From contig JAUIDB010000029.1 of NCBI GenBank assembly GCA_030429235.1, positions 1 to 51,201 of the forward strand: a DNA stretch of 51,201 nucleotides, written 5' to 3'. Position 1 is the stretch's first letter; the number at the start of each line of letters is the position of its first letter. The stretch is from Thermoanaerobaculia bacterium. Lineage in GTDB: Bacteria; Acidobacteriota; Thermoanaerobaculia; Multivoradales; JAIOJS01. The translations under genes were made by a program, and so were the position numbers. The notes under the pieces are model-generated. The model saw only the letters and a program-made list of their open reading frames with translations, ran no database searches and was not told the origin of the DNA. Of the stretch, positions 6,474 to 51,201 are shown one piece after another.

Positions 6474-9653
<3,180 letters not shown>

Positions 9654-9657
<4 letters not shown>

Positions 9658-11822
9658 GGTTGCTCGACCGAGCCGAAGCCCTCGCCTTCGTCGCGGCGGC
9701 CTGCCTCGCCCCGCTTCTACCCTGGTTGTTCGCTCTGCCCGAAGACGGCCTGGCCCAGACCGCCCGCTGGCTGCCGTTCGGAGCGGTAGCGTGCTGGTGG
9801 ATCGCTCGTCGGGTGGAGTGCCCTGGGGTCACCCTGCGGCGGCTCGCCAGCGGCACCGCCGGCTGGTGCGCCCTGGCGACGTCGGTCACCCAGGGAGGCC
9901 TGACCTGGGGTTCGCACCTCGCGATCGCCGTGCTCTACGCGCTGCTCGGGTCTGTGGTCCTGGTCCTGTGGCCCCGACTCCGCCAGACGGTGGGCCAATC
10001 GCAACCCCGCCGGCCCCCGCTGGTCGCCTTTGCCCTGCCCTGGATCGTCTACGTCCTCCTGATGCCCTGGTCGACGGTGCAGCGACCGCCGGACGGCGAC
10101 GAGCCGTACTACATGCTGATCGCCCACAGTCTGGCCTACGACCTCGACGTCGACCTGTCGAACAACTACGCCCAAAACGACTCGCTCCACTTCCTCGACC
10201 GGGCCCTGGAGCCACAGCTCGGCGACCCGGTGGATCGCGACGGCTCGCTCTATTCGCGGCACAACGCGTTGCTGGGAGTCGTGCTCACGTTGCCCTACCG
10301 ACTGGGGGGGCGCCCCGGTGTCCTGCTGACGATGACCCTCTTCGGTGGGCTGCTGGCCTGGTGGAGCCTCCGGTTCCTGCGCAGGATCTACCCCGAGCCC
10401 GAGTTCGTGCCGGCGGTGACGACCGCCTGGGGTCTCCTCGCCCTGACGCCGCCGCTCCTGCTCTACGGGCATCAGGTGTGGACCGAAGTTCCCGCCACTC
10501 TGCTGCTCCTCGTGGCCTGCGACGCTCTGCTCGGCCGACCGCGTCCGAGTACCACCCTGCGTCTGGGCGCCGCCGTCCTGCTCCTCCCGTTCTTGAAGTT
10601 CCGCTACGCGCTGCTCTCGGGCATGCTCCTGATCGGGGCGGCACGACGTCGGCTCGACCGAACACGGCTCGTCCTCCTCGGCCTCGGACTCCTGGCCGTC
10701 GGCGGGTTGATCGCCGGAGTCAACCTCCACCTCTTCGGTGGCATCCTCAAACACTACTCGGTCGACGAGCTGAGACTCTACGAACGTCCCCTGATCAGCT
10801 ACGTGCGGGCCACGCTCGGCCTGGCCTTCGACGGCGCCTTCGGTCTCTTTGCGGCCGCCCCCCTCTGGATCCTCCTCCTGCCCGCCCTCTTCGACCGCAC
10901 GGTGCGGCAGAATCCGGCGCTGCGTCAGGGTCTGCTCCTGCTCGCGCCCTACCTCCTGTTGGTCGCCTCGCGTCAGGAGTGGTTCGGAGGCTGGTCCCCT
11001 CCGTTCCGCTACGCGCTGCCCGCCCTGCCGTTCCTCGCCCTGGCGCTGGTGCCCGTGGTGCGCAAGGTCGACTCTCCCAGCCGCCGGCTGCTGGTCTCTG
11101 CCCTCGGAGCCCTGACCGCGCTGTTGACGTTGACCTGGCTGGTCGTGCCCGGCTGGACCTACAACCTGGCGGACGGTGGAAACCATCTGATCGACCACCT
11201 ATCGCGGCGCACCGCCAACGACCTGCGCCTCCTGTGGCCGAGTTACGTGCGCACCGCGGCGGCGGCGTGGCTCTGGCCTCCGCTCGTCACCCTGGCGACG
11301 CTCGGCCTGTGGTACGCCCTCCCGCGGCGGAGGGGGCACCGCGTCGAACCGACGACCGTCGCCCTCAGCGGCCTGTTGGCGGCCAGCGCCCTCTTCCTGG
11401 TGGCCGGAGCCCGCCTCCCCACCGGTACCATCGAGTTCGAAGATCCCCACGTACAGGCCCGCGCCGGGAGCCTCTATCCCGATCAATGGACCCCCGATCG
11501 GCAACGATTCCGCGGCGGCCGCACCCTCCGCCAGGGAGACTCGCTGCTGGTACCGGTGATCGACCGCTCGGAGTCGATCGACCTGGCGCTGGAACTGCGC
11601 TTCATCCAGAACCTGCCCCAAGCCACCTCGCTGACGATCGCCAGTGGCCCCCGGACGCTGGCGCAGTGGACCGCCGATCAACCCGACGCCTGGCAACGGG
11701 TACTCTTCGAGGCGCTGCCCTGGGTACCAGATCAGCCCCTGATTCTCACCGTGGAACCGCCACCCGAGACCGAATCGGTCAATGGGATTCTGCTCGACCG
11801 GGCGGAGATCCGCTGGCGATGA
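9654..11822 (+). CDS. GT-C family membrane glycosyltransferase-like protein
   Basis: A 722-aa protein with about a dozen transmembrane helices up to residue 590 and a roughly 130-aa C-terminal soluble beta-rich domain. Near residue 142 the outer loop reads PPDGDEPYYMLIAHSLAYD, the acidic GDE.YY pattern of GT39/ArnT-type enzymes that use polyprenyl-linked sugars. FLKFRYALL and EWFGGWSPPFRYALPALP are further family-like stretches. The GTG start overlaps the preceding TGA by 4 bp, and the stop overlaps the next ATG by 4 bp. It probably transfers a sugar onto a periplasmic glycan made by this operon; the exact reaction is unknown. Confidence 0.78.
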
Positions 11823-12757
11823 CGGACCAGGTCGCAGCCGTCGTCCCCACCGTGCAGGGGGGAGAACGACTGGCGCGGGCCCTACGGAGCCTGCGGGCCT
11901 CGACCGAACCGGTCCGGGTCACGGTGGTCCACCAGGGACCCGAGCCACTCGACGCCTCCCTGCGACCGCTCTACGACCACGGCATCGAGGTCCCCGACCG
12001 GCTCGGATTCTCCGCCGCCAACAACCTCGGCCTGGCGGCCAACCGAGACGTCCCGTACTGGGTGCTGCTCAACGACGACGCCGAGGTAGAACCCGACTGG
12101 CTGGCGCTCTGCCTCGAGCAGCTGGCGGCAGCTCCAGAGGCCGCCGGTGTCCAGGGGGTGAACTGGCTCGCCCGACCCGGCTCGGCGGAACGATCCCGGA
12201 TCGACGGCTACGGCATCGGTTGGAACCTCCGGGGCTGGCAGGCGCGTCAGCTCGGCCGGGACCGAGACACGGCGCCGGGCCACGAACCGTTCGAGCTGTT
12301 CGGCGTCTCGGCCACCGCTTGCCTCGTGCGGCGCCAGGCGCTGGAGGCCGCCGCCCTGCCCGACGGCAGCCTGCTCGACCCACGACTCGACACCTACTAC
12401 GAGGATGTCGACCTCGCGGTGCGATTGCGCGCTCGAGGATGGTCGGCGATCTGCCAACCGCAGGCGTGGGCCCGGCACCTCGGCGGCGGCAGCGCCGCCT
12501 CGCTGGGTCGACGCCGGCTGACCTTCCTGTACGGCAACCGCTACCTGGTGGTCGCGCGACTGCTCGGGCGCGACTTCGGCGCCGCGCGCGCGGCGATGTG
12601 GCGGCGCGATCTGCGCGATCTCGCCCGTTCCCCGTTACGGCTCCCGGGAATTGTCGGCGGCTGGCGCCGAGCTCGACGCCTGCTACCGCAGTTCAGGCAC
12701 TCCGGCCCGCCAGTCCTCTCGACCTCCGAGCTCGCTCGGTTCGGAGGTACCCCGTGA
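11819..12757 (+). CDS. Glycosyltransferase family 2 (rhamnosyltransferase-like)
   Basis: A 312-aa cytoplasmic GT-A enzyme. It begins with VAAVVPTVQGGERLARALRSL, has the nucleotide-sugar and metal site LLNDDAEVEPDW near residue 84 (DxD equivalent DDAE), and the acceptor-site motif YYEDVDLAVRLRARGW near 195, all typical of WbbL-like GT2 proteins. A C-terminal hydrophobic/basic stretch may attach it to the membrane. ATG 11819 overlaps the previous stop as ATGA. It is the first of three consecutive GT2 genes, which suggests a repeat unit of at least three or four sugars. Confidence 0.88.
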   Translation: MTDQVAAVVPTVQGGERLARALRSLRASTEPVRVTVVHQGPEPLDASLRPLYDHGIEVPDRLGFSAANNLGLAANRDVPYWVLLNDDAEVEPDWLALCLEQLAAAPEAAGVQGVNWLARPGSAERSRIDGYGIGWNLRGWQARQLGRDRDTAPGHEPFELFGVSATACLVRRQALEAAALPDGSLLDPRLDTYYEDVDLAVRLRARGWSAICQPQAWARHLGGGSAASLGRRRLTFLYGNRYLVVARLLGRDFGAARAAMWRRDLRDLARSPLRLPGIVGGWRRARRLLPQFRHSGPPVLSTSELARFGGTP

Positions 12758-13656
12758 CGGCGCCAGAACTCTCGGTCGTGGTGGTCCACTGGCACGACGA
12801 GGCGGCCCTGGCCGAACTGCTGGCCGCAGGGATCGAAGCCGACGACGGGGTCGAGTGGATCGTGGTCGACAACAGCCAGAGTGGCTCGTCTGCCTCCCGG
12901 TCGGACCAGGTGGTCTGGGTCACTCCGTCCACCAACCTCGGTTTCGGTGGTGGTGCGAACCTCGGAGTCTCCACAGCGCGCGGCAGCGCGATCCTGATCC
13001 TGAATCCGGACGCCCGCCCCGCACCGGGAGCCCTCGACGCCCTCCGACGGGGGCTGCGAGAGCACCCCGAGGCGGCCGGCCTGGTGCCCCGCCTCCACGG
13101 CCCCACCCACGAACCACAGTGGCGCTGGCAGCTCAAAGCACTGCCGACTCCCTGGCAGCTCCTGGCGCACGCACTCTTCGTCGACCCGGTGCGCGGCCCG
13201 CAGGAGGAGCCCGCGGCGGGCACACCAATCGCACAGCCGGCCGCAGCGGCCCTCCTGCTCCGCCGCCCCACCCTGGAGGCGGTCGCCGGGTTCGATCCCC
13301 GCTTCCAGCCGGCCTGGTTCGAAGATGTCGACCTGGCCCGACGACTCGCGGACCGGGGCGGCCAGCTGCTGTACTACCCCGCGGCCGAGTTCACCCACGG
13401 TCAGGGCGGTTCGGTGGCCCCTCTCGGCTTCGATCGGTTCCTCTGGGCCTACTACCGGAACTTGACTCGCTACCTCCAGCGTCACGGCGGGGGATGGCGG
13501 CGGCTGCTTCCTCCCCTTCTGGCGCTCGGCATGGGTTTGCGCTTGGCGCTACTGCCCGTTCGAAAGCCCGCCCGCGCAACCAGCCGCCGGGTGGCAGCCC
13601 GGGGATTGACGCGAGTTCTGCTCGGAGCTCTCAGCGGCTGGAGGTGGGCCCCTTGA
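12754..13656 (+). CDS. Glycosyltransferase family 2
   Basis: A 300-aa GT-A fold enzyme: ELSVVVVHWHDEAALAELL at the start, TNLGFGGGANLGV near residue 62, the DxD-type site LNPDARPAPG near 82, and FEDVDLARRLADRGG near 188. The C-terminal end (250-290) is hydrophobic and arginine-rich, likely membrane-associated. The GTG start overlaps the upstream TGA (GTGA), and its own TGA overlaps a TTG start downstream. It acts on undecaprenyl-linked glycan precursors by context; the sugar is unknown. Confidence 0.88.
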   Translation: MTAPELSVVVVHWHDEAALAELLAAGIEADDGVEWIVVDNSQSGSSASRSDQVVWVTPSTNLGFGGGANLGVSTARGSAILILNPDARPAPGALDALRRGLREHPEAAGLVPRLHGPTHEPQWRWQLKALPTPWQLLAHALFVDPVRGPQEEPAAGTPIAQPAAAALLLRRPTLEAVAGFDPRFQPAWFEDVDLARRLADRGGQLLYYPAAEFTHGQGGSVAPLGFDRFLWAYYRNLTRYLQRHGGGWRRLLPPLLALGMGLRLALLPVRKPARATSRRVAARGLTRVLLGALSGWRWAP

Positions 13657-14693
13657 CCCCTGCACCGTCGACTCGCTCGGTCGCCGTGCTGATGGTGATC
13701 CACGACGATGCCCACGACCTGCCGCCCTGTCTGGCCGCGGTCGCGGCGCTCGACCCGGCCCCCGAGGAGCTGTGGATCGCCGACTGCGCGAGTTCGGACG
13801 ACGGTGTGGCCACGGCCCGAGCCCACTGGCCGTCCGGGATCGCCGGCGAGGTCCTCGAACTCGGCGAGAACCGCGGCTTTGCCGGTGGCATGAACGCGGC
13901 GTTTGCAGCCTCGACCTGCGACTGGGTGTTGACCTTGAACGCCGACGCGCGGCCGGCCCCCGACTACCTGGAGCGTCTGCTCGCCCTGGCCGAGTCGCAA
14001 CCCACGCTCCAGCCGGGAGCGGTGACCGGACGCCTGGTACGGTTTGCCGTACCCGAGGAACCGCGCCGCCTCGACGCCTGCGGAATCTACCTGACCCCGA
14101 CCTGGCGACACCTCGACCGCGGCTCTGGCGCCGTGGATCAGGGCCAGTTCTCGACCCCGCAGCGAGTCTTCGGGGGCACCGGTGCCGCGACCCTCTTCCG
14201 CCGCGACGCCCTCCTCGACGTGAGCTTCCCGGGAGGAGAGGTCTTCGACGGCTCGTTCCACACCTTCCGCGAGGACGCCGAACTCTGCTTCCGACTCCAG
14301 GTGCTGGGCTGGGACGTCCTCTACGCCCCCGCCGCCCGGGCGGAACACCGGCGGTTCAACCTACCGCAACGTCGATCCGCCATCCCGGCGCGCTTCAACT
14401 ACCATTCGCTCAAGAACCGCTACCTGATCCGCGCCTACCACCAGACCTTCGGCAACTTCCTGTGGACTCTACCCGCCACCCTCTTTCGCGACCTGGCCGC
14501 CCTGGTCTGGGTACTGCTACGGGAACGAACCTCCCTCGCCGCCTACCACTGGCTCTGGCAGCACCGCACCTCGATCCTCGCGCGGCGCCGGTGGCTTCGG
14601 AAACGGCGTCGACGCCCAGGCCGGGCGCTCGACCGCTGGTTCCTCCGGCGCGCCCTGCCTCTGCCCGATCCGGAAGCCGGGATCGATGACTGA
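13653..14693 (+). CDS. Glycosyltransferase family 2
   Basis: A 346-aa GT2 enzyme: SVAVLMVIHDDAHDLPPCL at the start, ENRGFAGGMNAAFAAS near residue 72, LNADARPAPDY near 95 as the metal/nucleotide site, and FREDAELCFRLQVLGW near 206. I chose TTG 13653 because GGAGGT (13641-13645 region) sits at a normal distance before it and because TTGA gives the same 4-bp overlap seen at the other junctions of this operon. GTG 13644 is the alternative and would add three residues. The stop overlaps the next ATG by 8 bp. Confidence 0.86.
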   Translation: MTPAPSTRSVAVLMVIHDDAHDLPPCLAAVAALDPAPEELWIADCASSDDGVATARAHWPSGIAGEVLELGENRGFAGGMNAAFAASTCDWVLTLNADARPAPDYLERLLALAESQPTLQPGAVTGRLVRFAVPEEPRRLDACGIYLTPTWRHLDRGSGAVDQGQFSTPQRVFGGTGAATLFRRDALLDVSFPGGEVFDGSFHTFREDAELCFRLQVLGWDVLYAPAARAEHRRFNLPQRRSAIPARFNYHSLKNRYLIRAYHQTFGNFLWTLPATLFRDLAALVWVLLRERTSLAAYHWLWQHRTSILARRRWLRKRRRRPGRALDRWFLRRALPLPDPEAGIDD

Positions 14694-41410: not shown

Positions 41411-41803
41411 ATGTACCTCCGTGCCCTCCTCCTCTGGCTGCTCCTCATGGTCCTGGCCATCGCCAACGGCGGATTCCGCGAAGCCCTGCTCACCCCCCGA
41501 CTGGGAGCCCCTGCCGCCCACGTCGTCAGCACCCTCCTGCTCTGCCTGCTGATCGCGGTCACCAGCTACACCACCATCCCCTGGCTGGCTCCGCCCACCC
41601 CATCGGCCGCCCTCGCCCTCGGAACCCTCTGGCTCGTCCTGACCCTCGCCTTTGAATTCGGCTTCGGCCACTACGTGGTCCACAAACCCTGGAGCGAACT
41701 CCTGGCCGACTACAACCTACTCGCCGGCCGCGTCTGGATCCTCGTCCCCGTCACCGTCTTCCTGGCCCCCCTCCTCGCCGCCCGAACGCGCGACCTCCTC
41801 TAG
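41411..41803 (+). CDS. Small membrane protein
   Basis: A 130-aa protein with four predicted helices (4-22, 38-56, 67-85, 103-122) and conserved-looking FEFGFGHYVVHKPWSELLAD between the third and fourth. I do not recognise a named family. ATG 41411 lacks a Shine-Dalgarno; TAGGGT (41399-41404) lies 6 nt upstream, the same spacing as at ubiX. Last backbone gene before the integron array; 170 bp after ubiA. Confidence 0.7.
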   Translation: MYLRALLLWLLLMVLAIANGGFREALLTPRLGAPAAHVVSTLLLCLLIAVTSYTTIPWLAPPTPSAALALGTLWLVLTLAFEFGFGHYVVHKPWSELLADYNLLAGRVWILVPVTVFLAPLLAARTRDLL

Positions 41804-41871
41804 CCGAGGCCCGCCCGATCGCCGCCCCGCACCGCCCCCACCGGCCCGAGGCAATCGACTCCACAATACAA

Positions 41872-41985
41872 ACGCGCCCCTACTTTCCGCCTAACCCACC
41901 TCTGCCAACCCACCTATCCCTAGCCCCAACAGCCAGTTGACGGAAACCTCCCCTTCCCGAAGCGCGCCCCCGCTTTCCGCCTAAC
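41872..41985. repeat. Two 24-bp direct repeats before the array
   Basis: CGCGCCCC, three variable bases, then TTTCCGCCTAAC occurs at about 41873-41895 and 41962-41985. Each copy ends GCCTAAC, identical to an attC outer box. They could be recombinase-binding direct repeats of an attI region or the scar of lost attC sites. The flanking 41804-42055 has no gene I can see. Confidence 0.45.
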
Positions 41986-41999
41986 ACTCTCGGAAAGCG
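41971..41999. other. 9-bp perfect hairpin upstream of array
   Basis: CGCTTTCCG and CGGAAAGCG pair fully around an 11-nt loop that contains GCCTAAC from the second direct repeat. No T-run follows. It may terminate transcription from the 41411 gene or be part of the old attachment site. Confidence 0.45.
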
Positions 42000-42055
42000 A
42001 GAATCTGGTACAAAACCACGCCCCCGCACCGTCGAGCCCGCGGCTCTCCGCACGC

Positions 42056-42084
42056 TTACAATTCAAGTCGAGTCAAGGCATAAT
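42056..42084 (+). promoter_or_regulatory. Candidate cassette promoter (Pc)
   Basis: -35-like TTACAA (42056-42061), 17-nt spacer, -10 CATAAT (42079-42084, 5 of 6), pointing into the cassettes. The predicted start of transcription (about 42091) coincides with the ATG of the 38-codon leader ORF. The -35 is weak. Confidence 0.45.
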
Positions 42085-42090
42085 GACTCC

Positions 42091-42207
42091 ATGAGCGTGA
42101 CCGATGGCGAGAATCCAGCAGCCGACCCTACCGGGGCCACCGGTGCTCCATTCCCCTTCCCATTCCACCTAATCACTTGTTGGGCGGCCGTGCAACGATA
42201 TGAGTAG
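42091..42207 (+). CDS. Putative leader peptide across the cassette insertion point
   Basis: A 38-codon ORF (MSVTDGENPAADPTGATGAP, then PF repeats) starts at or near the predicted +1 and is therefore leaderless if transcribed from the candidate Pc. It runs through GTTGGGC (42179-42185), where cassettes insert, and its TAG stop (42205-42207) lies just past the ATG of the cassette-1 gene (42200), overlapping it by 8 bp. The cassette-1 gene has no Shine-Dalgarno of its own, so coupling would make sense, as with ORF-11/ORF-18 in class 1 attI1. Whether it is translated is unproven. Confidence 0.4.
   Translation: MSVTDGENPAADPTGATGAPFPFPFHLITCWAAVQRYE
42179..42185 (+). other. First recombination core (attI-like position)
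   Basis: GTTGGGC with exchange point between G42179 and T42180. Nothing resembling an attC stem precedes it, so this is the array's proximal end and stands where attI should be. Expected neighbour intI is absent: no integrase-like ORF on either strand from 41239 to 42179. Confidence 0.7.
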
Positions 42208-42586
42208 TTTGGCCTACGCCTTAGTCGCGGCTGCGCTGTCGGTGATCATCGGTGGCCTCTTAGGGCTGTGGCTTGTGTTGGTCAGGCGAGTTGCACCGCG
42301 AGTTGTCGAGCCTCTGGTTAGCCCGCTGCAGTTCATCGAACACAGTGTCGGCGGTGTTTCTAGAGACCGTTTGCCCTACGAGGGGCAAGCAGATCTCGCA
42401 GGCAGGTTTGCCATTGTGGTTCGAGACTTCAGTCAATCGCCCGGTGGCAACTCAGCTAAGGGCAAGGTAATGATAGGTGGCGAACGCTGGAATGCCGTAT
42501 CTGAGGCGGCCCTCTTGAAAGGCGACAGGTGTCGCATTGCGGAAGTGCGCGGACTTGTGGCCGTAGTCGAGCCCTTTGAAGGATAG
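42200..42586 (+). CDS. Cassette 1: NfeD-like membrane protein
   Basis: A 128-aa protein: N-terminal transmembrane helix (about 5-28), a linker of 35 residues, then an OB-fold domain with GQADLAGRFAIVVR and GKVMIGGERWNAVSEAALLK to GLVAVVEPFEG. The GxxxxxGxRWxAxSxxxxxxGxxxxV pattern is that of the NfeD C-terminal domain, which helps membrane quality control with SPFH/stomatin partners. No partner protein is encoded here. No Shine-Dalgarno; the start is overlapped by the leader ORF stop. Function in a cassette context is unknown. Confidence 0.75.
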   Translation: MSSLAYALVAAALSVIIGGLLGLWLVLVRRVAPRVVEPLVSPLQFIEHSVGGVSRDRLPYEGQADLAGRFAIVVRDFSQSPGGNSAKGKVMIGGERWNAVSEAALLKGDRCRIAEVRGLVAVVEPFEG

Positions 42587-42595
42587 CGGGCGGCC

Positions 42596-42724
42596 GCCCA
42601 ACCAACCGCTGAACCGGACCCAACACGTGCTCGCCACAAACTCACTTCAACTTGCTTGGCTCACCGGTCTTCCGCCTGCCGAGGTGGTCTTGCCAGTTGG
42701 GCCGGTTAGCTCCATCCGTTAGGC
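42596..42724 (+). repeat. attC site 1
   Basis: 129 bp from GCCCAAC (42596-42602) to GTTAGGC (42718-42724). The left box matches the TTGGGC at the start of cassette 1. Confidence 0.9.
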
Positions 42725-42739
42725 CGCTGACGAATCGAC

Positions 42740-43222
42740 ATGCACGCAGTCACGAGGCGCTTTGCTCACCTTCTCGCAGCCCTCGGGCTAGCTGTCCCTT
42801 CCGTTCTGACTTTGCTCAACAACGACTTCTCGCTGTTGACGCCCTTCCCTTTGCCCCTGTTCGTTCTTCAATGGGTTCTGGGCTGGGCGGTTGTCGTGGT
42901 TGTTCCCGTGGTTTACCTGTTCTTCGTTTACTTCGGGCGTTCCGAGCGGAACTGGCCGAAAGTAGTTCTCCAGTTGGCATCTCTCCTACTTGCCAGCCAA
43001 GTCGTCTACATCGCCTGGGCTTGGACATGGGGTGTCACAATTCACGGGCTTTCCCATACGGTCCAAGTCAGTTCCCTTACTCTGCTGTTTTCTGGGGCAA
43101 CGGTGGGCCTGGCGATCGTTGGCCGACGCACCAGAAACTCCTGGGCGACACCTTCTGCATTGTGGCTTGTCTTCTTCGCTCTTGCTTGGTGCGCTTTCCC
43201 TTTCATCGGAGAGGCACCTTGA
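42740..43222 (+). CDS. Cassette 2: polytopic membrane protein
   Basis: A 160-aa protein of unknown family with about five hydrophobic segments (8-26, 37-65, 78-97, 106-127, 136-153). Segments include LQWVLGWAVVVVVPVVYLFF and SALWLVFFALAWCAFPF. ATG 42740; no ribosome binding site visible, so translation may depend on upstream cassettes. I cannot assign a function. Confidence 0.7.
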   Translation: MHAVTRRFAHLLAALGLAVPSVLTLLNNDFSLLTPFPLPLFVLQWVLGWAVVVVVPVVYLFFVYFGRSERNWPKVVLQLASLLLASQVVYIAWAWTWGVTIHGLSHTVQVSSLTLLFSGATVGLAIVGRRTRNSWATPSALWLVFFALAWCAFPFIGEAP

Positions 43223-43238
43223 ACTGTCTAGACCAGCG

Positions 43239-43367
43239 GCCTAACCACCCGCTGAACCGGACCCAACACGTGCTCGCCACGAACTCACTTCATCGCCCTT
43301 GGTTCACCAGCCTCGTGTCTGTCCAAGGCGGTGGCCAGTTGGGCCGGTTAGCTCCAGTCCGTTGGGC
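43239..43367 (+). repeat. attC site 2
   Basis: 129 bp from GCCTAAC (43239-43245) to GTTGGGC (43361-43367). Left box complements TTAGGC at the start of cassette 2. Confidence 0.9.
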
Positions 43368-43629
43368 CGCTGGGGCGGGACAGAGTCTGGCTAGGGCCTT
43401 CGGCCCTGACGTCTCGTCCGGACCGTTCGATCGCGTTGGCAGCATTGCCGACGACTGCGACCGCCGCCCACCATCCCAGCGGTGGCAACGTCGTCACCCC
43501 GGCCAGTGCGACATCTGTTCGTGGCGCTCCACCACCCGACCCCCTCGGCTGGACCAGCATGAACGCGGTCCAAGACCTTCGAATAGAGCCGCTGTCGACA
43601 GGTGGTAGCGGTACGATGTTGACCAGCTG
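43368..43629 (+). other. Cassette 3: gene-free cassette body, family A copy 1
   Basis: About 262 bp without a supportable gene. It begins CGCTGGGGCGGG, contains the hairpin AGGGCC-TTC-GGCCCT (43393-43407), GTTGGCAGC, GCATGAACGCGGTCC and ends GGTACGATGTTGACCAGCTGG. Very similar to cassette 6 and more distantly to cassette 15. Small indels shift every possible frame between the copies on both strands, so a protein is unlikely; an RNA or regulatory element is possible. Confidence 0.7.
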
Positions 43630-43758
43630 GCCCAACCAACCGCTGAACCGGACCCAACACGTGCCTGCCACAAACTCACCTCGTCACATTTGGCCCACCG
43701 ATCTTCCGCCTGCCGAGTTCACCCCGCCGGTTGGGCCGGTTAGCTCCATCCGTTGTGC
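43630..43758 (+). repeat. attC site 3
   Basis: 129 bp from GCCCAAC (43630-43636) to a non-consensus GTTGTGC (43752-43758). Left box matches the start of cassette 3. Confidence 0.88.
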
Positions 43759-43797
43759 GTCCTGCCAGAGGTCCAAGCTCAAACTAAGGAGTCCTAG

Positions 43798-44022
43798 TTG
43801 AATCCAGTAACCGTCACAGTTGGTGCCGCTGCCATCCTGTTTGGCCTCTACATGTCCTTCCTGCGGATTACTAATCCCGCCAAATTGGGCAAACTGGAAC
43901 CGATGAAAGAACGCTTCGGAACCGCCGGGGCCGCTATTCACTTCATCGCCTATTCGGTTGTGCCAGTTGCCTACGGGATTGTGACGATCCTGGGTGGCCT
44001 CAAAGGCGATCCCCTCTTCTAG
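43798..44022 (+). CDS. Cassette 4: small two-helix membrane protein
   Basis: A 74-aa protein with two hydrophobic segments (about 5-20 and 45-66) separated by LRITNPAKLGKLEPMKERFG. The start is TTG 43798, chosen because AAGGAG (43786-43791) lies 6 nt upstream. The second helix AAIHFIAYSVVPVAYGIV and short cytoplasmic loop are like a family of small hypothetical proteins in many bacteria; no function is known to me. Confidence 0.75.
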   Translation: MNPVTVTVGAAAILFGLYMSFLRITNPAKLGKLEPMKERFGTAGAAIHFIAYSVVPVAYGIVTILGGLKGDPLF

Positions 44023-44058
44023 CTCCTCCTCTTGACTCGCGACCCGCTTCCTCAGGCC

Positions 44059-44187
44059 GCACAACAAACCACTGAACCGGACCCAACACGTGCCTGCCAC
44101 AAACTCACTTCATCCCGCTTGGCTCATCGGTCTTCCGGCTGCCGAGGTCACCTCGCCAGTTGGGCCGGTTAGCTCCATCCGTTGGGC
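44059..44187 (+). repeat. attC site 4
   Basis: 129 bp from GCACAAC (44059-44065) to GTTGGGC (44181-44187). The unusual left box exactly complements GTTGTGC at the start of cassette 4: compensatory change. Confidence 0.9.
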
Positions 44188-44213
44188 GGCCGTGGACACG
44201 GTATTCACGACGA

Positions 44214-44762
44214 ATGGCTAACAGAACCTATTTGATTCCGCACACTAGCTCTGATCCAGGGGTCAATGATCTCGACCGCTTCGCCGTCTTGAAGGCGGCC
44301 AACTACTCTCTGCCGGTACTCTGGTTGGCGCTCTTCAAAGACCGCAACCGGGCATCGAGATCCCTAGAGGTCTGCGACGCGGAAGGGCAGTCTTTCTTCG
44401 AGGAGTTCCCCACTCTCCACACGTCGCTGTCTAACGCACTCGAGAATTGGGGCCAGCGGCGTGGGGTCTTGGAGGGCTTTCTCCCTGAAGAACTCCATAC
44501 CTATCTTCGGCGCTGGGATGACACGCTGTCGGCACTAGCAACGCCATTCATCCAGGTCGAGTTGAGCGAGCTCGCGATGATGATGGAACCTCAGGAGTTT
44601 GAGGAGTCCCTGAACCTCAGCTTGAGTGCTCTCGATACTCTCGATGAGACCGCTCTAGCGGAGTTCTTTTCTCAAGCGGCGTTCGAATTCCGGAGCCGGA
44701 ATGCTCCAATTGGCTACGACGAGGCAACGGTTGAGTTCAACCTACTTGGCTTTGACTGGTAA
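44214..44762 (+). CDS. Cassette 5: hypothetical protein
   Basis: A 182-aa soluble, acidic protein with no family I recognise. It has mostly helical, leucine-rich sequence (LPVLWLALFKDRNRASRSL, LSNALENWGQRRGVLEGFLP, EFEESLNLSLSALDTLDETA) and ends in FEFRSRNAPIG plus a short tail. ATG 44214 has no clear Shine-Dalgarno. Length and charge resemble immunity-type or small regulatory proteins, which is only a guess. Confidence 0.7.
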   Translation: MANRTYLIPHTSSDPGVNDLDRFAVLKAANYSLPVLWLALFKDRNRASRSLEVCDAEGQSFFEEFPTLHTSLSNALENWGQRRGVLEGFLPEELHTYLRRWDDTLSALATPFIQVELSELAMMMEPQEFEESLNLSLSALDTLDETALAEFFSQAAFEFRSRNAPIGYDEATVEFNLLGFDW

Positions 44763-44770
44763 CTGCGGCC

Positions 44771-44899
44771 GCCCAACCAACCGCTGAACCGGACCCAACG
44801 CGTGCTTGCCACAAACTCACTTCAACCCGTTTGGCTCATCGGCCTTCCGCCTGCCGAGATGGCCTGGCCAGTTGGGCCGGTTAGCTCCGTCCGTTGGGC
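44771..44899 (+). repeat. attC site 5
   Basis: 129 bp from GCCCAAC (44771-44777) to GTTGGGC (44893-44899). Confidence 0.9.
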
Positions 44900-45163
44900 C
44901 GCTGGGGCGGGGCGGAATCTAGGCCGGGCCTTCGGCCATGACGTCTCGCCCAGACCGTTCGATCGGGTTGGCAGCGTTGTCGACGACTGCGACCGCCGCC
45001 CCACCATTCCAGCGGTGGCAACGTCGTCACCCCGGCCAGTGCGACATCTGTTCGTGGCGCTCCACCACCCGGCCCCCTCGGCTGGAACAGCATGAACGCG
45101 GTCCAAGACCTTCGAATCAGAGCCGCTGTCAACAGGTGGTAGCGGTACGATGTTGACCAGCTG
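44900..45163 (+). other. Cassette 6: gene-free cassette body, family A copy 2
   Basis: About 264 bp, close to cassette 3 along its whole length, with the hairpin reduced to GGCC-TTC-GGCC (44926-44938 region) and several one-base indels. No ORF is conserved between the two copies. Confidence 0.7.
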
Positions 45164-45292
45164 GCCCAACCAACCGCTGAACCGGACCCAACACGTGCTT
45201 GCCACAAACTCACTTCGTCCCGCTTGGCTCATCGACCTACCGTCTGCCGAAGTAGCTTCGCCAGTTGGGCCGGTTAGCTCCATCCGTTGGGC
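45164..45292 (+). repeat. attC site 6
   Basis: 129 bp from GCCCAAC (45164-45170) to GTTGGGC (45286-45292). Confidence 0.9.
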
Positions 45293-45427
45293 CGCACTGG
45301 CCGGGCTACCTAGCTTCAAGGCTACTAGGGAAGGTGACCGGGGGCATTCACGTACTCTGTTCATGGCACCTCGATTCGCTGCATTCGCTTCGGACTTCGC
45401 TTCCGCAGGCGCCCGAGGCTAGACCCC

Positions 45428-45718
45428 TTGGTCGCCCTGCTTGTGTTGGCTTGGTGTGTTGCTCTCAAGCTCTCAGTGGACGCAACGAGGGCAAGGGCCG
45501 TCGCCCTCGGCATCTTTGTCGGTATCTGCTTTTGCCTTGCCTCGGTCATCGAGTCCGGCAGCTCTGCGATCCTCTGGCGACAGAGTGTCGCTTTTCTGAT
45601 CGTCGCCACCATCTCGACTCTCTCGTTCAGTCGTACCGATGGCATCATCTCGGGGGTCTTCGTGGTCGTGGTCGGCACCATTGCCATGTTCGCCGCAATA
45701 CCTGTAGCGCTGGGCTAG
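45428..45718 (+). CDS. Cassette 7: small membrane protein
   Basis: A 96-aa protein with three hydrophobic segments (about 1-18, 25-42 and 50-95, the last probably two helices). TTG 45428 is the only start codon at the head of the frame; no ribosome binding site is clear. A tiny ORF upstream (ATG 45363 to TAG 45422) ends 5 nt before it and may couple translation, or an undetected frameshift could extend the protein. No family recognised. Confidence 0.55.
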   Translation: MVALLVLAWCVALKLSVDATRARAVALGIFVGICFCLASVIESGSSAILWRQSVAFLIVATISTLSFSRTDGIISGVFVVVVGTIAMFAAIPVALG

Positions 45719-45748
45719 TCTTGCTAGACTGAACTCTTTACCGGTGCG

Positions 45749-45877
45749 GCCCAACCAACCGCTGAACCGGACCCAACCCGTGCCTGCCACAAACCCACTT
45801 CATACCGCTTGGCTCATCGGTCTTCCGCATGTCGAGGTCACCTCGCCGGTTGGGCCGGTTAGCTCCATCCGTTGGGT
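45749..45877 (+). repeat. attC site 7
   Basis: 129 bp from GCCCAAC (45749-45755) to GTTGGGT (45871-45877). Confidence 0.9.
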
Positions 45878-46517
45878 GCCCCGCCCAACCGACCTTGCCT
45901 TCCGAATACTCGTCCCCCTTGCCTTGTTCGCTCTCGCGCAGTCTGCGCAGGCACGACTTCCCGGGATAGCGCCCGACGAGTTTCTCTTGGCCGCGCCGTG
46001 TGCCTACTACGGCACGGTTTCTTCAGTTATTGAGGAGACCTCCTCGAGAACCAACAGTGTGATTCGCGAAGTCCACGCTGTCCTGACCGGGTTGACTCTG
46101 GAGAAGGGGCAGGGGTGCCCCAGTATGGAGTCGATGACACTCAGGCTCTACGCTGAGTATCACTCATCTCATCCCGTTGAAGGGCAACAAGCCCTGTTCT
46201 TCCCGAAGAGAACCAACGGCGTCTGGCTCGAGGCCGTCTATGGTCGAAGCTACTGGCCAATCGAGGCATCGATTGAAGAGACCCCTGCCATCCGAGTTGA
46301 CTGGAGGAACGACTTCCTCTCCAAGGTCGTTCCGGTTCGGTGCTTCCCACATCTAGAGCAGGCAACCGCAGTCGCTTCCCTATCCAAAGTCCTGTCCTGG
46401 CTCCGATCGGGCAAGTCTCAATCAGACAACTCCGAGAACTGTCTAGACTCTGCTTGGAACGAACTACTTCGGGACCTGGCGATTGAACAGAAGCGTCTCG
46501 AACAAGCGCTGGACTAG
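45876..46517 (+). CDS. Cassette 8: secreted protein of unknown function
   Basis: A 213-aa protein. GTG 45876 overlaps the last bases of attC 7, which makes a signal peptide of about 23 residues (LAFRILVPLALFALAQSAQA). The mature part has two Cys (AAPCAYYGTVS, GQGCPSM), a beta-rich middle (MTLRLYAEYHSSHPVEGQQA, LFFPKRTNGVWLEAVYGRSY) and a helical, charged end (LLRDLAIEQKRLEQALD). No family recognised. Having its start codon within the recombination core means that the N-terminus could change when the cassette moves. Confidence 0.7.
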   Translation: MPRPTDLAFRILVPLALFALAQSAQARLPGIAPDEFLLAAPCAYYGTVSSVIEETSSRTNSVIREVHAVLTGLTLEKGQGCPSMESMTLRLYAEYHSSHPVEGQQALFFPKRTNGVWLEAVYGRSYWPIEASIEETPAIRVDWRNDFLSKVVPVRCFPHLEQATAVASLSKVLSWLRSGKSQSDNSENCLDSAWNELLRDLAIEQKRLEQALD

Positions 46518-46556
46518 TGATCGAAGCGACAAGACAAACAACGTCCTTCCCGGAAC

Positions 46557-46685
46557 ACCCAACCAACCGCTGAACCGGACCCAACACGTGCCTGCCACAA
46601 ACTCACTTCAACGCTCATGGCTCACTGTTCTTGTGTCTGTCGAAAGCGGTGGCCGGTTGGGCCGGTTAGCTTCCGTCCGTTAGGC
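46557..46685 (+). repeat. attC site 8
   Basis: 129 bp from ACCCAAC (46557-46563), complementary to GTTGGGT at the start of cassette 8, to GTTAGGC (46679-46685). Confidence 0.9.
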
Positions 46686-46712
46686 CGCTCTGGGATCAGC
46701 CTATTCATCAGA

Positions 46713-47138
46713 ATGAAGCTCTACCACTACACCCATGGCTTCTACGCCGCAGCGATCCTCTACTCGGGAAGAATCGGCTTGAGCTATCAGACAGATGGAG
46801 TCGAGAAACCAGCGGCCTGGTTTAGCTACTCCGAAGAGTGGGAGAACAAGGCAGCGGAGCCTCCGGTCAGAACGGTTGACTGGTTCTCAGAACGGTGGCG
46901 CTTCCAAATCATGCCCAAGGCAGCGCCTCACAGCTGGGAGGATTGGCGTCGCATATCGGGTTGCGGTGTCGAGATGGCTGATCAGCTCGCCAAGGGTGCT
47001 GAAGTCACGAGATGGCGAGCGTCATTCTGTGAGGTTTCATCGTCGTCCTGGCAAGCCGTTGAACGGTTCGTTCACGACACCTGGCAAGAGGTACCTGCAT
47101 GGAGCGCGGCTGTTCGTTTCAGTCAAAGTCTGCGCTGA
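46713..47138 (+). CDS. Cassette 9: possible ADP-ribosyltransferase-fold protein
   Basis: A 141-aa protein starting MKLYHYTHGFYAAAILYSGR and then KPAAWFSYSEEWENKA. A YHYT-type start followed by a short helix and Gly-containing turn (SGRIGLSY) recalls the H-Y-E-like NAD site entry of ART-fold proteins such as DarT and KptA. A possible catalytic Glu lies later (SSSWQAVERFVHDTWQEVP). The resemblance is only in short stretches, so I call it possible. ATG 46713, no ribosome binding site. No antitoxin is obvious in the same cassette. Confidence 0.55.
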   Translation: MKLYHYTHGFYAAAILYSGRIGLSYQTDGVEKPAAWFSYSEEWENKAAEPPVRTVDWFSERWRFQIMPKAAPHSWEDWRRISGCGVEMADQLAKGAEVTRWRASFCEVSSSSWQAVERFVHDTWQEVPAWSAAVRFSQSLR

Positions 47139-47141
47139 GCG

Positions 47142-47271
47142 GCCTAACCACCCGCTGAACTGGACCCCATAGGATGCTGGCACAAACTCACGTCGTCTCA
47201 TTCGGCTCATCGCGTTTCGCTCCGGCGGTCGAGTGTGGCCAATGGGGCCAGTTAGCTTCCGTCCGTTAGCC
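47142..47271 (+). repeat. attC site 9
   Basis: 130 bp from GCCTAAC (47142-47148) to GTTAGCC (47265-47271). Its inner part differs from the main type (GAACTGGACCCCATAGGATG), a second attC subtype shared with site 10. Confidence 0.88.
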
Positions 47272-47297
47272 GTCTTTGGCAACTTCAACTCCTCCTC

Positions 47298-47519
47298 ATG
47301 TCTCAGACGATCTATATCTACCTGCTCGATGAAGGCGTTGATTGCTGGCGCCCAGTCCAAGCCGAAAAGCTGGAGGACGAACTTTTTCGGATATTGACTC
47401 CAAACCCAGACCCTGACGACGAACGATGGGAGTTTGAGTGTGGTGCGACTGTGCAGTGTAGGTGGCGACTCCTAGATGGAGGGCTGTCCCTTGTTGCGGT
47501 GAGACAGGCTCCGGTCTAG
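47298..47519 (+). CDS. Cassette 10: small hypothetical protein
   Basis: A 73-aa soluble protein, IYIYLLDEGVDCWRPVQAEK at the start, then LFRILTPNPDPDDERWEFEC and GATVQCRW. The YLLDEGxDxWRPVxA pattern is a widespread small hypothetical family that I recognise from many bacterial genomes, often also in cassettes; no function is known. ATG 47298 without a Shine-Dalgarno. Confidence 0.8.
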   Translation: MSQTIYIYLLDEGVDCWRPVQAEKLEDELFRILTPNPDPDDERWEFECGATVQCRWRLLDGGLSLVAVRQAPV

Positions 47520-47572
47520 GGTTCAATGAAATGCCAGCCTCAACACTCGCCTGCCGACCATCGTTCTACGCC

Positions 47573-47702
47573 GGCTAACCAACCGCTGAACCGGACCCAA
47601 TAGGATGCTGGCTCAAGCCAACAATCTCGTTTCTAGGCTCACCGCTGCTGGCTTCGCGAAGCGCGCTCGCCAATTGGGCCGGTTAGCTTCCGTACGTTAG
47701 GT
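47573..47702 (+). repeat. attC site 10
   Basis: 130 bp from GGCTAAC (47573-47579), exact complement of GTTAGCC at the start of cassette 10, to GTTAGGT (47696-47702). Central loop contains CTTCGCGAAGCGCG, so the terminal structure differs from the main type. Confidence 0.88.
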
Positions 47703-47744
47703 GGCGGAGGAACCTGACTACCCTGTGGAAGGGGAGATGTCACG

Positions 47745-48236
47745 ATGTCCAATAGTTTCGACTCTCCAGACGATGAACCGCTCTTCATCGCGATCGCTGA
47801 TGACGACCCTCGTATGGTGGCAGCCTATTCCCTTGCTGCGCGCACGGTCGATCGCTTTCTCGTCGCGGTTACTCGCACTGGCGACCACTTCTGCTGTGCA
47901 AAACTCAAGTTCCGCGATCCCGACCTCTCTGACTCGCTCGGCGAAGATCGCTTCGTCTACCTATGGCTCTCTGGCGTGGTTTACCACGCGGCCGAGCGCC
48001 TGTTCTCGGGCGAGTTCTTCGAGGTACCACCGGAGTTGGCGCAGTGGCATCACGTTGGCCGGCGACTGACCTTCTCGGCCGAGGACATCTTCGATTGGTT
48101 TGTCCTCGACGATGGCGAGCTTGACGGTGGTTTTACAATGCGCGTAGCCCGCGACTCCCTTCCCGAGGCTGAGCGAGCTTCCTACGATTCCTACGTAGGC
48201 GCTCGAAGCTACGCACCGATTCCCGACGGGGCGTAG
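47745..48236 (+). CDS. Cassette 11: DUF2314 domain protein
   Basis: A 163-aa protein with DPRMVAAYSLAARTVDRFLV near 21, GDHFCCAKLKFRD, EDRFVYLWLSGVVYHAAERL, FSGEFFEVPPELAQWHHVGR, and DIFDWFVLDDGELDGGFTMR near 113-133. This order matches DUF2314 (YegJ-type) proteins, whose role is unknown. ATG 47745 has GGGGAG about 9 nt upstream. Confidence 0.82.
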   Translation: MSNSFDSPDDEPLFIAIADDDPRMVAAYSLAARTVDRFLVAVTRTGDHFCCAKLKFRDPDLSDSLGEDRFVYLWLSGVVYHAAERLFSGEFFEVPPELAQWHHVGRRLTFSAEDIFDWFVLDDGELDGGFTMRVARDSLPEAERASYDSYVGARSYAPIPDGA

Positions 48237-48246
48237 TTGGCTCGCC

Positions 48247-48375
48247 ACATAACAAACCGCTGAACCGGACCCAACAGTTGCTCGCCGCAAACTCACTTTC
48301 TTCTCCCGGGCTCAACGCCGCTGGCAACGTCGAACGGCGTGGCCGGTTGGGCCGGTTAGCTTCCGTCCGTTAGGC
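48247..48375 (+). repeat. attC site 11
   Basis: 129 bp from ACATAAC (48247-48253) to GTTAGGC (48369-48375). The only site whose left box does not fully complement its cassette start (GTTAGGT would need ACCTAAC). Confidence 0.85.
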
Positions 48376-48392
48376 CGCTTGGCGAGAAGCCT

Positions 48393-48923
48393 ATGACTAT
48401 GCAGCAACTCATCAATGAGCAGCTCGGCCCTGAGGACGACCCGGCTTTCTGGGCGCAAGCCGTGCCTGATGTACTCAGACTCTCGGTCCACGGTGCTGAG
48501 GATGTAGGCCGGCTGCGGCACCGCGTCTTCGCCCAGGTTGGGGCCTGCTCGCACTGGCTCCGGCCCCATCAGACGAGGTGGTCGGCAGCCGGGGGGTTCG
48601 CCTGGCCCTCAGGCTACGGCGCTAGCGGGTACAGCCGAGCTGGCCTACCAGAGTTCGATTGGTCAATCCTGGTCGAGTTCGACCGGAGCTCCAGTACCTG
48701 GCTTCCCGCAGCCAGGCTAGAAGGTAAGAAGAAGCTCGTTCTGCGGGTCGCCGTGCCAACGCGGACAGCACGCCACAGTCAGGCCGCCGTTCACACCCTC
48801 TGGTCGCCAGGCTCTCCCGTCAATCCGAAAGTGAAGCAACGACGGATCTTTGGCTTTCGACAATCGGAAGGCCTATGGGCTTGCGAAGCCGACATGGTTG
48901 TGGCTACTCATGGCGCGGCCTAA
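48393..48923 (+). CDS. Cassette 12: hypothetical protein
   Basis: A 176-aa soluble protein of unknown family, rich in Trp and Arg: LSVHGAEDVGRLRHRVFAQV, FDWSILVEFDRSSSTWLPAA, KKKLVLRVAVPTRTARHSQ, and WACEADMVVATHGAA at the end. Two in-frame ATG lie at the start (48393 and 48399). The stop codon TAA is inside the attC outer box GCCTAAC, so the attC begins within the gene. No function assigned. Confidence 0.7.
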   Translation: MTMQQLINEQLGPEDDPAFWAQAVPDVLRLSVHGAEDVGRLRHRVFAQVGACSHWLRPHQTRWSAAGGFAWPSGYGASGYSRAGLPEFDWSILVEFDRSSSTWLPAARLEGKKKLVLRVAVPTRTARHSQAAVHTLWSPGSPVNPKVKQRRIFGFRQSEGLWACEADMVVATHGAA

Positions 48924-49046
48924 CCAACCGCTGAACCGGACCCAACAGGTGCCTGCCACAAACTCACTTCATCCCGCTTGGCTCATCGGTCTTCCGTCTG
49001 CCGGGGTGGCGTCGCCAGTTGGGCCGGTTAGCTCCGTCCGTTATGT
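48918..49046 (+). repeat. attC site 12
   Basis: 129 bp from GCCTAAC (48918-48924) to a non-consensus GTTATGT (49040-49046). Confidence 0.9.
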
Positions 49047-49062
49047 TGCGTAGGGAAAGTAG

Positions 49063-49368
49063 ATGAGGGTGCGAATCGAGGCCAACTTCACGCCAACTCA
49101 CGAGGAACCTCGCTTCTTCGTTCGGCAGCTCGACGAGAGCGATGACGGCTATGCACTTGGCTACCGAGTCGAGATCCAACTGCTAGACGACTACGGTCTC
49201 GGCTCAGCCTCAGTTCAGTTGCGTGTTGGCGAGGTAGCGACGACGGGTTCTATTGACGTTCCACTTGCGGTCGTCGAGGCAGCTCATGCGGGCCTCAACG
49301 ACTATGTCGACTCCAGGGGTCTTGTCTGTCCTCCGAGCTTTCTCGCGCCCACCAAGCAGAATAGCTAG
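49063..49368 (+). CDS. Cassette 13: hypothetical protein
   Basis: A 101-aa protein: RVRIEANFTPTHEEPRFFVR, GYRVEIQLLDDYGLGSASVQ, VPLAVVEAAHAGLNDYVDSR. It alternates beta-like segments and ends in a helix. ATG 49063 has AGGGAAAG 4 nt upstream. No family recognised. Confidence 0.7.
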   Translation: MRVRIEANFTPTHEEPRFFVRQLDESDDGYALGYRVEIQLLDDYGLGSASVQLRVGEVATTGSIDVPLAVVEAAHAGLNDYVDSRGLVCPPSFLAPTKQNS

Positions 49369-49409
49369 GCGGGGTGTCAACGTCCTGCCTGAAACGCCCT
49401 TGACTCGCA

Positions 49410-49538
49410 ACATAACCAACCGCTGAACCGGACCCAACAAGTGCCTACCACAGACTCCCCTCGTCACGCTTGGCTCATCGGTCTACCGCCTACCGAGCTC
49501 ACCTCGCCAGTTGGGCCGGTTAGCTCCATCCGTTGGGC
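49410..49538 (+). repeat. attC site 13
   Basis: 129 bp from ACATAAC (49410-49416), exact complement of the odd GTTATGT at the start of cassette 13, to GTTGGGC (49532-49538). Confidence 0.9.
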
Positions 49539-49568
49539 TGCAGCGGCACCGGCTTCGAGGTCGGCGCG

Positions 49569-50039
49569 ATGACCGAGAATCGAGACAACCTCCTTTCGTT
49601 CCGCCCGGGTGACCAAACCTATCTTGCTGGGCCGGAGCAGCCGTACTTCTGTTTCTCGGCAACTCTTAGAGTCTTTGGTGATCAGCTAGACCTCGACGCA
49701 ATCACGTCAGCGCTGGAAACGGCCCCGACAAGCTTCCACCGGAAGGGCGAACGCAGGTCTCCTCGCAGCCCGGAATTCAAACACGACATGTGGTGTCTTG
49801 AATCGCCTCTTTCAGAGGACGAACCACTTGGTCGCCACCTGGAGTGGCTCTACGAGAACCTGAGTTTGAAGTTCGACTACCTGATCTCCTTGAAGGAATC
49901 AGCGGCCGTAGACATCTTCTGCGGCTATCGAAGTAACAGCGCGACTGCTGGGTTCTCAGTTGAGCATCAAGCACTGAAGATCTTTGAGGCTCTCGACGTG
50001 CCGTTCGACGTTTCAGTCATAGTTCTGGAAGATGAATAG
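49569..50039 (+). CDS. Cassette 14: DUF4279 domain protein
   Basis: A 156-aa protein with FCFSATLRVFGDQLDLDAIT near 28, SALETAPTSFHRKGERR, then MWCLESPLSEDEPLGRHLEW and VDIFCGYRSNSATAGFSVEH. The order beta strand, DxxxITxxLxxxPTxxxxKGE and Trp-Leu-Glu-Ser is that of DUF4279, a small domain of unknown role. ATG 49569 has GAGG 8 nt before it. Confidence 0.75.
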   Translation: MTENRDNLLSFRPGDQTYLAGPEQPYFCFSATLRVFGDQLDLDAITSALETAPTSFHRKGERRSPRSPEFKHDMWCLESPLSEDEPLGRHLEWLYENLSLKFDYLISLKESAAVDIFCGYRSNSATAGFSVEHQALKIFEALDVPFDVSVIVLEDE

Positions 50040-50090
50040 TCTCATTGTTGTAGGTCGGTCCGTTCCCTGCCGGGCCGTCTTCGAGCTGCA

Positions 50091-50219
50091 GCCCAACCAA
50101 CCACTGAACCGGACCCAACACGTGCCTGCCACAGACTCACTTCATCCCGCTCGGCTGATCGATCTTCCGCCTGCCGGGGTGACGTCGCCAGTTGGGCCGG
50201 TTAGCTCCGTCCGTTGGGC
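50091..50219 (+). repeat. attC site 14
   Basis: 129 bp from GCCCAAC (50091-50097) to GTTGGGC (50213-50219). Confidence 0.9.
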
Positions 50220-50482
50220 CGCTGGGGCGGGGCAGAATCTAGCTAGGGCCTTCGGCCCTGACGTCTCGACCGGACCACTCTCTCGAGTTGGCAGCAAGAT
50301 CGACTACCGCAACCATCGCCAGTGGCATCCCAACCTTGGCCACGTTCTTGGCCTCACCAGGGCAACGGCCACTCGAAGCCTTCCACCGCCCGGCCCTCCC
50401 CAGCGAAGCAGCATGAACGCGGTCCTGAACGCTCGGCTGAGGCCACCCTTGGAGAGGTCCACGGTACGATCTTCTCCAGCTG
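50220..50482 (+). other. Cassette 15: gene-free cassette body, family A diverged copy
   Basis: About 263 bp. The first 60 bp are nearly the same as in cassette 3 (CGCTGGGGCGGGGCAGAATC, hairpin AGGGCC-TTC-GGCCCT near 50244-50258), the middle has diverged, then GCATGAACGCGGTCC and ACGGTACGAT...CCAGCTGG return. Conserved ends with a drifting middle argue for a functional non-coding element. Confidence 0.65.
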
Positions 50483-50612
50483 GCCCAACCAAATCACTGA
50501 ACCGGACCCCACAAGTGCCTGCCATTAAAGCACTTTCAACCTTCAGGCTCCACGCCGCCGACTCCGCCAGGCTCCCTCGCCGGTGGGGCCGGTTAGTTCC
50601 CGTACGTTAGGC
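50483..50612 (+). repeat. attC site 15
   Basis: 130 bp from GCCCAAC (50483-50489) to GTTAGGC (50606-50612). Diverged inner part (AATCACTGAACCGGACCCCA). Confidence 0.88.
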
Positions 50613-50624
50613 TGATTCGGCAAC

Positions 50625-51149
50625 ATGTACGACGTTCATGACGACGAAGTAGTCGAAATCCAGAGCGCTCCTCGACCAAACGTAGGAGCACCGCTCCCCG
50701 CGATGATCGCTGCCGAATCTGCGTTGTCGATTGCCTATATTGTCTCCGAGCCGGATCCCAACTGGGACGGGACGTATGTCAGCGTCGTCTCGAGCAACTC
50801 CGACGACCAACCCATCGCGATCGTTCGCTTCGACCGACCGTATGCTCACGTCTTTGGACCGCCAAACGACGAGGCGTTCTCGGGCCACCCGCTGGCATCT
50901 CGCGGGTTGAAGCCATATTCCGTAAGCCAGATCAACAACTCCTCCTGGATCGACTCGCTTGAGCGCATGAACTCAGTGCATCCGTATCATCTTCCTCGAG
51001 CCTTCTCTGGACTTCGTCACTATGTATTCTCGTTTCACGATTCCACCTTCGAGTGCGTTGCTCGTGGGTTGTCTCTCGAGCTACACCGCGGTTCGATGAA
51101 CTCAGCATTGCGGCTCATGCTTGACAAGTTTCGTGAGAATTCAGCCTAA
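50625..51149 (+). CDS. Cassette 16: hypothetical protein
   Basis: A 174-aa soluble protein: IVSEPDPNWDGTYVSVVSSN near 39, IAIVRFDRPYAHVFGPPNDE near 65, AFSGHPLASRGLKPYSVSQI, SWIDSLERMNSVHPYHLPRA and RHYVFSFHDSTFECVARGLS near 132. The FGPPNDEAFxGHPLxxRGL and FHDSTFECVA stretches belong to a hypothetical family I have seen across several phyla; function unknown. Its TAA stop lies inside the outer box of attC 16. ATG 50625. Confidence 0.78.
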   Translation: MYDVHDDEVVEIQSAPRPNVGAPLPAMIAAESALSIAYIVSEPDPNWDGTYVSVVSSNSDDQPIAIVRFDRPYAHVFGPPNDEAFSGHPLASRGLKPYSVSQINNSSWIDSLERMNSVHPYHLPRAFSGLRHYVFSFHDSTFECVARGLSLELHRGSMNSALRLMLDKFRENSA

Positions 51150-51201
51150 CCATGCGCTGAACCGGACCCAACACGTGCCTGCCACAAACTCGCTTCATCC
51201 C
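51144..51201 (+). repeat. attC site 16, cut by window end
   Basis: Starts GCCTAAC (51144-51150) followed by GCTGAACCGGACCCAACACG as in the main type. The right half lies outside the window. Confidence 0.85.

Follow-up and report, generated by a model that had tools for sequence, protein, structure and literature searches.

The window analysed here, a stretch of 51,201 nucleotides from a Thermoanaerobaculia bacterium, is the whole of one contig (C91) in a 4.85 Mb genome assembled in 92 contigs. Its last nine kilobases are occupied by an array of sixteen integron cassettes, all in a single direction, running from 42179 up to the contig end at 51201; a repeat search recovers sixteen in-register repeats at 42596-51201 (family D5). 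Fifteen attC sites are complete, each 129-130 bp long as the initial annotation had described them, and the sixteenth (51144-51201) is truncated by the contig end. The right edge of the array is the end of the contig, not merely of the window, and the array almost certainly continues beyond it. The 15 complete sites follow the plan R''-L''-L'-R', with GCCCAAC...TGAACCGGACCCAAC...GTTGGGCCGGTTAGC...GTTGGGC, and the first core of the array is GTTGGGC at 42179. It is preceded by backbone genes and by a leader, here called attI2, whose counterpart attI1 lies beside the integron integrase gene (intI) on another contig (C73):

40346 to 41239, plus strand: UbiA-family prenyltransferase gene (ubiA; Pfam PF01040), the left backbone flank; its partner gene, presumably mqnE, is on contig C70
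41411 to 41803, plus strand: gene for a membrane protein of 130 aa, situated after ubiA and before attI2; it is the last backbone ORF, and relatives lack it at their ubiA-mqnE junction
41860 to 42181, plus strand: orphan attI leader (attI2), a homologue of the attI/intI leader region at C73 77742-78067, without intI
41870 to 41895, plus strand: first copy of a leader direct repeat (AAACGCGCCCCTACTTTCCGCCTAAC; family D8), conserved in attI1, with two 15-nt exact blocks common to both leaders
41960 to 41985, plus strand: second copy of the repeat (family D8), conserved in attI1, with shared blocks CGAAGCGCGCCC and TTCCGCCTAAC
42055 to 42084, plus strand: promoter-like site and candidate Pc, CTTACA-N18-CATAAT, facing the array
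42165 to 42188, plus strand: attI2 core, 24 bp, identical to that of attI1, with CCACCTAATCACTTG and TTGGGCGGC on either side of the recombination point (G/TT) at 42179/42180

The cassettes that follow are:

42180 to 42718, plus strand: cassette 1, ORF 42200-42586 with an NfeD-like C-terminal domain (Pfam PF01957, 8e-12), attC 42596-42724 (151 bits with the attC model)
42719 to 43361, plus strand: cassette 2, ORF 42740-43222 for a membrane protein of no Pfam family, attC 43239-43367
43362 to 43752, plus strand: cassette 3, ORF-less, member of a seven-copy family, attC 43630-43758
43753 to 44181, plus strand: cassette 4, ORF 43798-44022, attC 44059-44187
44182 to 44893, plus strand: cassette 5, ORF ending at 44762, attC 44771-44899
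44894 to 45286, plus strand: cassette 6, ORF-less, member of the seven-copy family, attC 45164-45292
45287 to 45871, plus strand: cassette 7, ORF 45428-45718, attC 45749-45877
45872 to 46679, plus strand: cassette 8, ORF ending at 46517, attC 46557-46685
46680 to 47265, plus strand: cassette 9, ORF ending at 47138, attC 47142-47271
47266 to 47696, plus strand: cassette 10, ORF 47298-47519, attC 47573-47702
47697 to 48369, plus strand: cassette 11, ORF 47745-48236 with a DUF2314 domain (Pfam PF10077, 7e-11), attC 48247-48375
48370 to 49040, plus strand: cassette 12, ORF 48393-48923, attC 48918-49046
49041 to 49532, plus strand: cassette 13, ORF 49063-49368, attC 49410-49538
49533 to 50213, plus strand: cassette 14, ORF ending at 50039 with a DUF4279 domain (Pfam PF14106, 1.3e-16), attC 50091-50219
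50214 to 50606, plus strand: cassette 15, ORF-less, member of the seven-copy family, attC 50483-50612
50607 to 51201, plus strand: cassette 16 (cassette X), ORF 50625-51149, attC 51144-51201 truncated by the contig end; common to the intI-bearing array

Nine cassette proteins from the window were compared with PADLOC and gave no match. The ORF-less family has seven copies of about 268 nt with conserved ends, spread across both arrays (window 43366-43632, 44898-45166 and 50218-50485; L029 197-462; and, on the minus strand, L031 13174-13441, 4894-5160 and 1382-1649), and an invariant CGGTACGAT block close to the 3' end. Gene-less Vibrio cassettes reportedly carry a promoter (PMC11014356), and by analogy the present family may have one. 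A structured RNA was considered for the family and found no support, the covariation term being only -0.2.

Are the array repeats integron sites, and did an integron integrase assemble them? All the expected attC elements are found in the window sites: the four boxes R'', L'', L' and R', the RYYYAAC and GTTRRRY ends, and a foldable inverted repeat (alignment A1). With the 15 complete sites as input, a covariance model finds 61 copies genome-wide, confined to four contigs (15 on C91, 34 on C70, 10 on C28 and 2 on C73). An alignment of 93 sites, taken from the present genome and a congener, was fitted to the attC model and is hence biased in its favour; it has 92.4% of cells paired and a covariation score of 0.220, compared with 0.126 when shuffled and no more than 0.072 once the partners are slid. 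Two-sided changes are strongest in the L-box helices. Folded as single strands, the bottom strands form the L''/L' stem in nearly all 15 sites, with modest overall z-scores (+0.2 to -2.7). The array has no match in Rfam, and no attC homologues were found in plasmids. Entry of cassettes as circles cut at G/TT would predict that the 5' edge of each complements its own R'' and not that of its neighbour. Of the 16 cassettes in the window, 15 have a 5' core in exact agreement with their own R'' and the remaining one has a single mismatch, whereas agreement with the next cassette is seen in just 3 of 15; shuffles gave a mean of 4.4 own matches and never reached 15 in 100,000 trials (P<1e-5). The repeats are not a product of chance, because the 61 model copies are confined to four contigs and the L-box covariation and own-R'' matching point the same way; the matching, moreover, is direct evidence from sequence for assembly of the array by an integron integrase.

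The ORF end at 41803 given in the initial annotation stands, but the stretch between it and the first core is not plain backbone: a diverged attI with a promoter-like site had been missed. The leader matches that on C73 at 72% identity over 329 bases (blastn, E=3e-40), with no third copy in the genome, and at 71.3% over 324 nt when the two leaders are aligned. The two are homologous from a point 26 bp before the intI start codon position as far as the core, and no intI is left. Both leaders have a pair of direct repeats ending CCGCCTAAC, and each has exactly one sigma-70-like site, at the same aligned position and facing its array, where 0.2 are expected per region; the site at 42055-42084 is the sole such match in 1.3 kb (0.2 expected). 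Across 149 genomes of the class, and with one mismatch allowed, CACCTAATCACTTGTTRRRY has two occurrences, which lie at the two array starts of the present genome. A DNA-level comparison with 59 relatives finds the window attI in its own genome alone, and the core was not found in viral contigs; the leader of the congener, of which about 150 bp is assembled before its contig ends, does not match attI1. By its homology, then, the stretch before the first core is a real, diverged attI. That integron integrases also insert off target, at attG sites, is documented (PMC12444791 discusses it), and cassettes placed at a random secondary site of this kind would give an attC cluster without attI; with 322 bp before the first core homologous to a real attI leader, promoter-like site included, such an origin is scarcely credible here. 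The attI2 platform may derive from a complete integron platform that shed its intI on landing between ubiA and mqnE, or else from a copy of the leader.

No integrase-like stretch lies in the gap between 41803 and 42179, as had been claimed, or elsewhere in the window, and tblastn gives only chance-level matches to intI there. One IntI in the genome exceeds the curated cut-off, at C73 76757-77701 on the minus strand (TIGR02249, 443.7 bits); it is full length and without stops, among solved structures it is closest to the integron integrase of Vibrio cholerae (2a3v, 1e-83), and its catalytic tyrosine-recombinase motifs are intact (GSGMRLQE, HTLRHSF, LLGHRNV, EIYTHV). Its matches in genome contigs are at most 64% identical and spread over many phyla. 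On C73, divergently from intI, come an attI and then two cassettes whose attC are of the same type; the contig ends in the first part of a third. The array of the window thus has an attI at its 5' end, as judged by homology to the intI-linked attI1, and lacks the adjoining intI of a complete integron; with 15 complete attC and the sole IntI over cut-off on C73, it belongs with the clusters of at least two attC sites lacking a neighbouring integron-integrase that IntegronFinder defines as CALINs. The initial reading of a sedentary integron-type array, made by one integrase type and without adjacent intI, was right. It had left the integrase as lost, elsewhere or supplied in trans: elsewhere is borne out, there being an intact IntI on C73 and the near-end window attC scoring like those beside intI in one covariance model, while supply in trans is something we infer. 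An intI just to the right, which would have made this an ordinary integron, is not seen either, the candidate continuations C70 and C28 being without IntI over cut-off.

Some further features concern cassettes and integrases outside the window. The first cassette beside intI on C73 (L027 8072-9034, minus strand) has an ORF in reverse orientation that encodes a TIR domain (PF13676, 3.5e-21) and matches the PADLOC ThsB-like and PDC-S66 profiles, and this front-position ORF is likely to be a phage-defence gene. A cassette on C70 (L031, about 12198-13020, minus strand) reads by eye like a nucleotide-binding TIR-type protein (FVVHGHDDATKAELE...). The congener's integron integrase (G001:C373, L049) is about 70% identical to that on C73 and adjoins orthologues of genes at 6.4-16.4 kb of contig C16 of the present genome (G000), unlike the present one, which adjoins an M28/PDZ-like peptidase; because the intI neighbours differ in this way, the platform has, on the evidence of gene order, been relocated within the genus. 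In a further relative (G017:C2, L192), intI (9357-10298) and attC-like sites (10972-13675) have apparently the same orientation, versus divergent on C73, and this integron is possibly of the inverted-integrase type.

The first reading had missed another feature: the cassette at which the contig end cuts off the array is also part of the intI-bearing array. The 5' part of cassette X is identical over 111 bp to the end of C73, starting CG/TTAGGC, the integrase cut point, and the 127 bases at the end of C91 also open, without a difference, both C28 and the reverse complement of C70; between the two ends of X the assembly has a single copy, and the identity covers the shared ends. There are two entries to X and two exits, as expected for a cassette in two arrays: X is common to both and broke the assembly. 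Beyond the shared bases, the two exits have the 5' half of the attC in common and differ in the 3' half (positions 128-198 of C28 and of the C70 reverse complement). As the sequences stand, a hybrid attC is present in at least one copy of X; this is unexpected from plain G/TT exchange, and because the copies differ in this way homologous recombination probably took part alongside integrase action.

Could the two arrays be a single ordinary integron split by assembly, the window holding the distal part of the C73 integron? Draft assemblies do inflate CALIN counts (PMC9024848), and this one breaks inside cassettes. But the arrays differ at both ends: their 5' ends are distinct, with leaders only 71-72% identical and so not from one read set and with unlike backbone flanks, and so are their 3' ends (C28 and C70); moreover, the orientation of C91 places backbone, not array, on its 5' side. 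A split integron is accordingly very improbable.

Which continuation belongs to which array is indicated by gene order in relatives. The ubiA and mqnE genes are adjacent in seven relatives, the sole congener among them, and separated in the present genome, with ubiA to the left of the window array and, beyond the array on C70, in matching orientation, a gene that we take to be mqnE from reading its protein rather than from a family search. Because of this, the simplest reading, with a C91-C70 join drawn from synteny and not from the assembly, takes C91 on into C70 (about 49 attC and 36 kb) and C73 on into C28 (about 12 attC), and makes insertion of the array between ubiA and mqnE derived in this lineage. 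The left flank of C73 shares no neighbours in relatives with the right flank of C28 or of C70. About 26 kb without convincing attC (C70 316136-342068) separates the end of the C70 array from mqnE. In the congener, a weak attC (G001:C396, L191, 10082-10205) is on a contig with homologues of the C28 right-flank genes, which suggests that the 3' end of the C28 array is conserved in the genus.

The main rival among interpretations is that the window holds a dead relic that no longer moves: a second complete integron that lost intI long ago and exchanges no cassettes, with X shared through homologous recombination between repeats. The hybrid attC of X fits this, CALINs are usually seen as degraded integrons (PMC9024848), and the attC at the far end of C70 decay (62.7, 58.8 and 47.5 bits). 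Against it, the near-end attC equal in quality those beside intI, the leaders have diverged by 29% and yet retain the attI core and promoter-like site, and the 5' edge of the identity of X falls at the integrase cut point; on balance we think the relic unlikely. We find it considerably more convincing that the window is the 5' part of a sedentary array on its own attI without intI (a CALIN with an orphan attI), for which IntI would be supplied in trans from C73. The C73 enzyme would act on both attI and on the attC type that the arrays share, taking cassettes out of one array or the other and putting them back at attI1 or attI2, with exchange at G/TT, and the promoter-like site of each leader would transcribe the front cassettes. 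Two observations weigh against this array served in trans: about 29% of positions are different between attI1 and attI2, and IntI may on that account use one of the two poorly, and the attC 3'-half difference between the copies of X is not produced by clean integrase transfer. A fuller version, in which one IntI works on two active attI, each with a cassette promoter, giving two independently expressed fronts on a common cassette pool, is offered only tentatively, as an idea with rather less than an even chance of holding.

Arrays without integrase in genomes with a complete integron are common and already known. In RefSeq, CALINs are nearly equal in number to complete integrons and average almost 6 attC (PMC9024848). 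In about half of Xanthomonas genomes they are found outside the usual integron locus, and they are described as mobilisable in trans by a functional IntI (both PMC12444791). The window array resembles these in having several attC in one direction, no nearby intI and a complete integron elsewhere in the genome. It differs in having its own attI with a promoter-like site, a feature that standard software does not seek outside class 1 integrons (PMC9024848), and, if C70 is its continuation, in having about 49 attC against an average near 6 (PMC9024848), in which case it exceeds the intI-bearing array. Since CALINs, nearly as numerous as complete integrons, are usually taken for debris, the genome offers a natural test case for whether they can be live second platforms, and the comparison of attI1 with attI2 indicates bases possibly required by an IntI of this type.

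The Vibrio superintegron and the sedentary integrons of Xanthomonas share with the window a long unidirectional array, homogeneous long attC, mostly small genes of unknown function, ORF-less cassettes and a V. cholerae-related IntI, but the window locus is without intI and the genome has two separate attI platforms. One enzyme serving two arrays, as is probably the case here, is an uncommon arrangement that has already been reported: a similar pair of arrays is known from Shewanella prophage M16-3, with two arrays per genome, each starting from an attI, and intI at one only. Both arrays of M16-3 have the same Shewanella-type attI and are inside an inactive prophage, whereas in the present genome the attI leaders are about 29% apart, the flanking genes look like those of an ordinary chromosome, and the array is far larger. 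What sets this genome apart is an attI that has diverged and yet stayed conserved, promoter-like site included, together with an integrase-less array that is probably the larger of the two.
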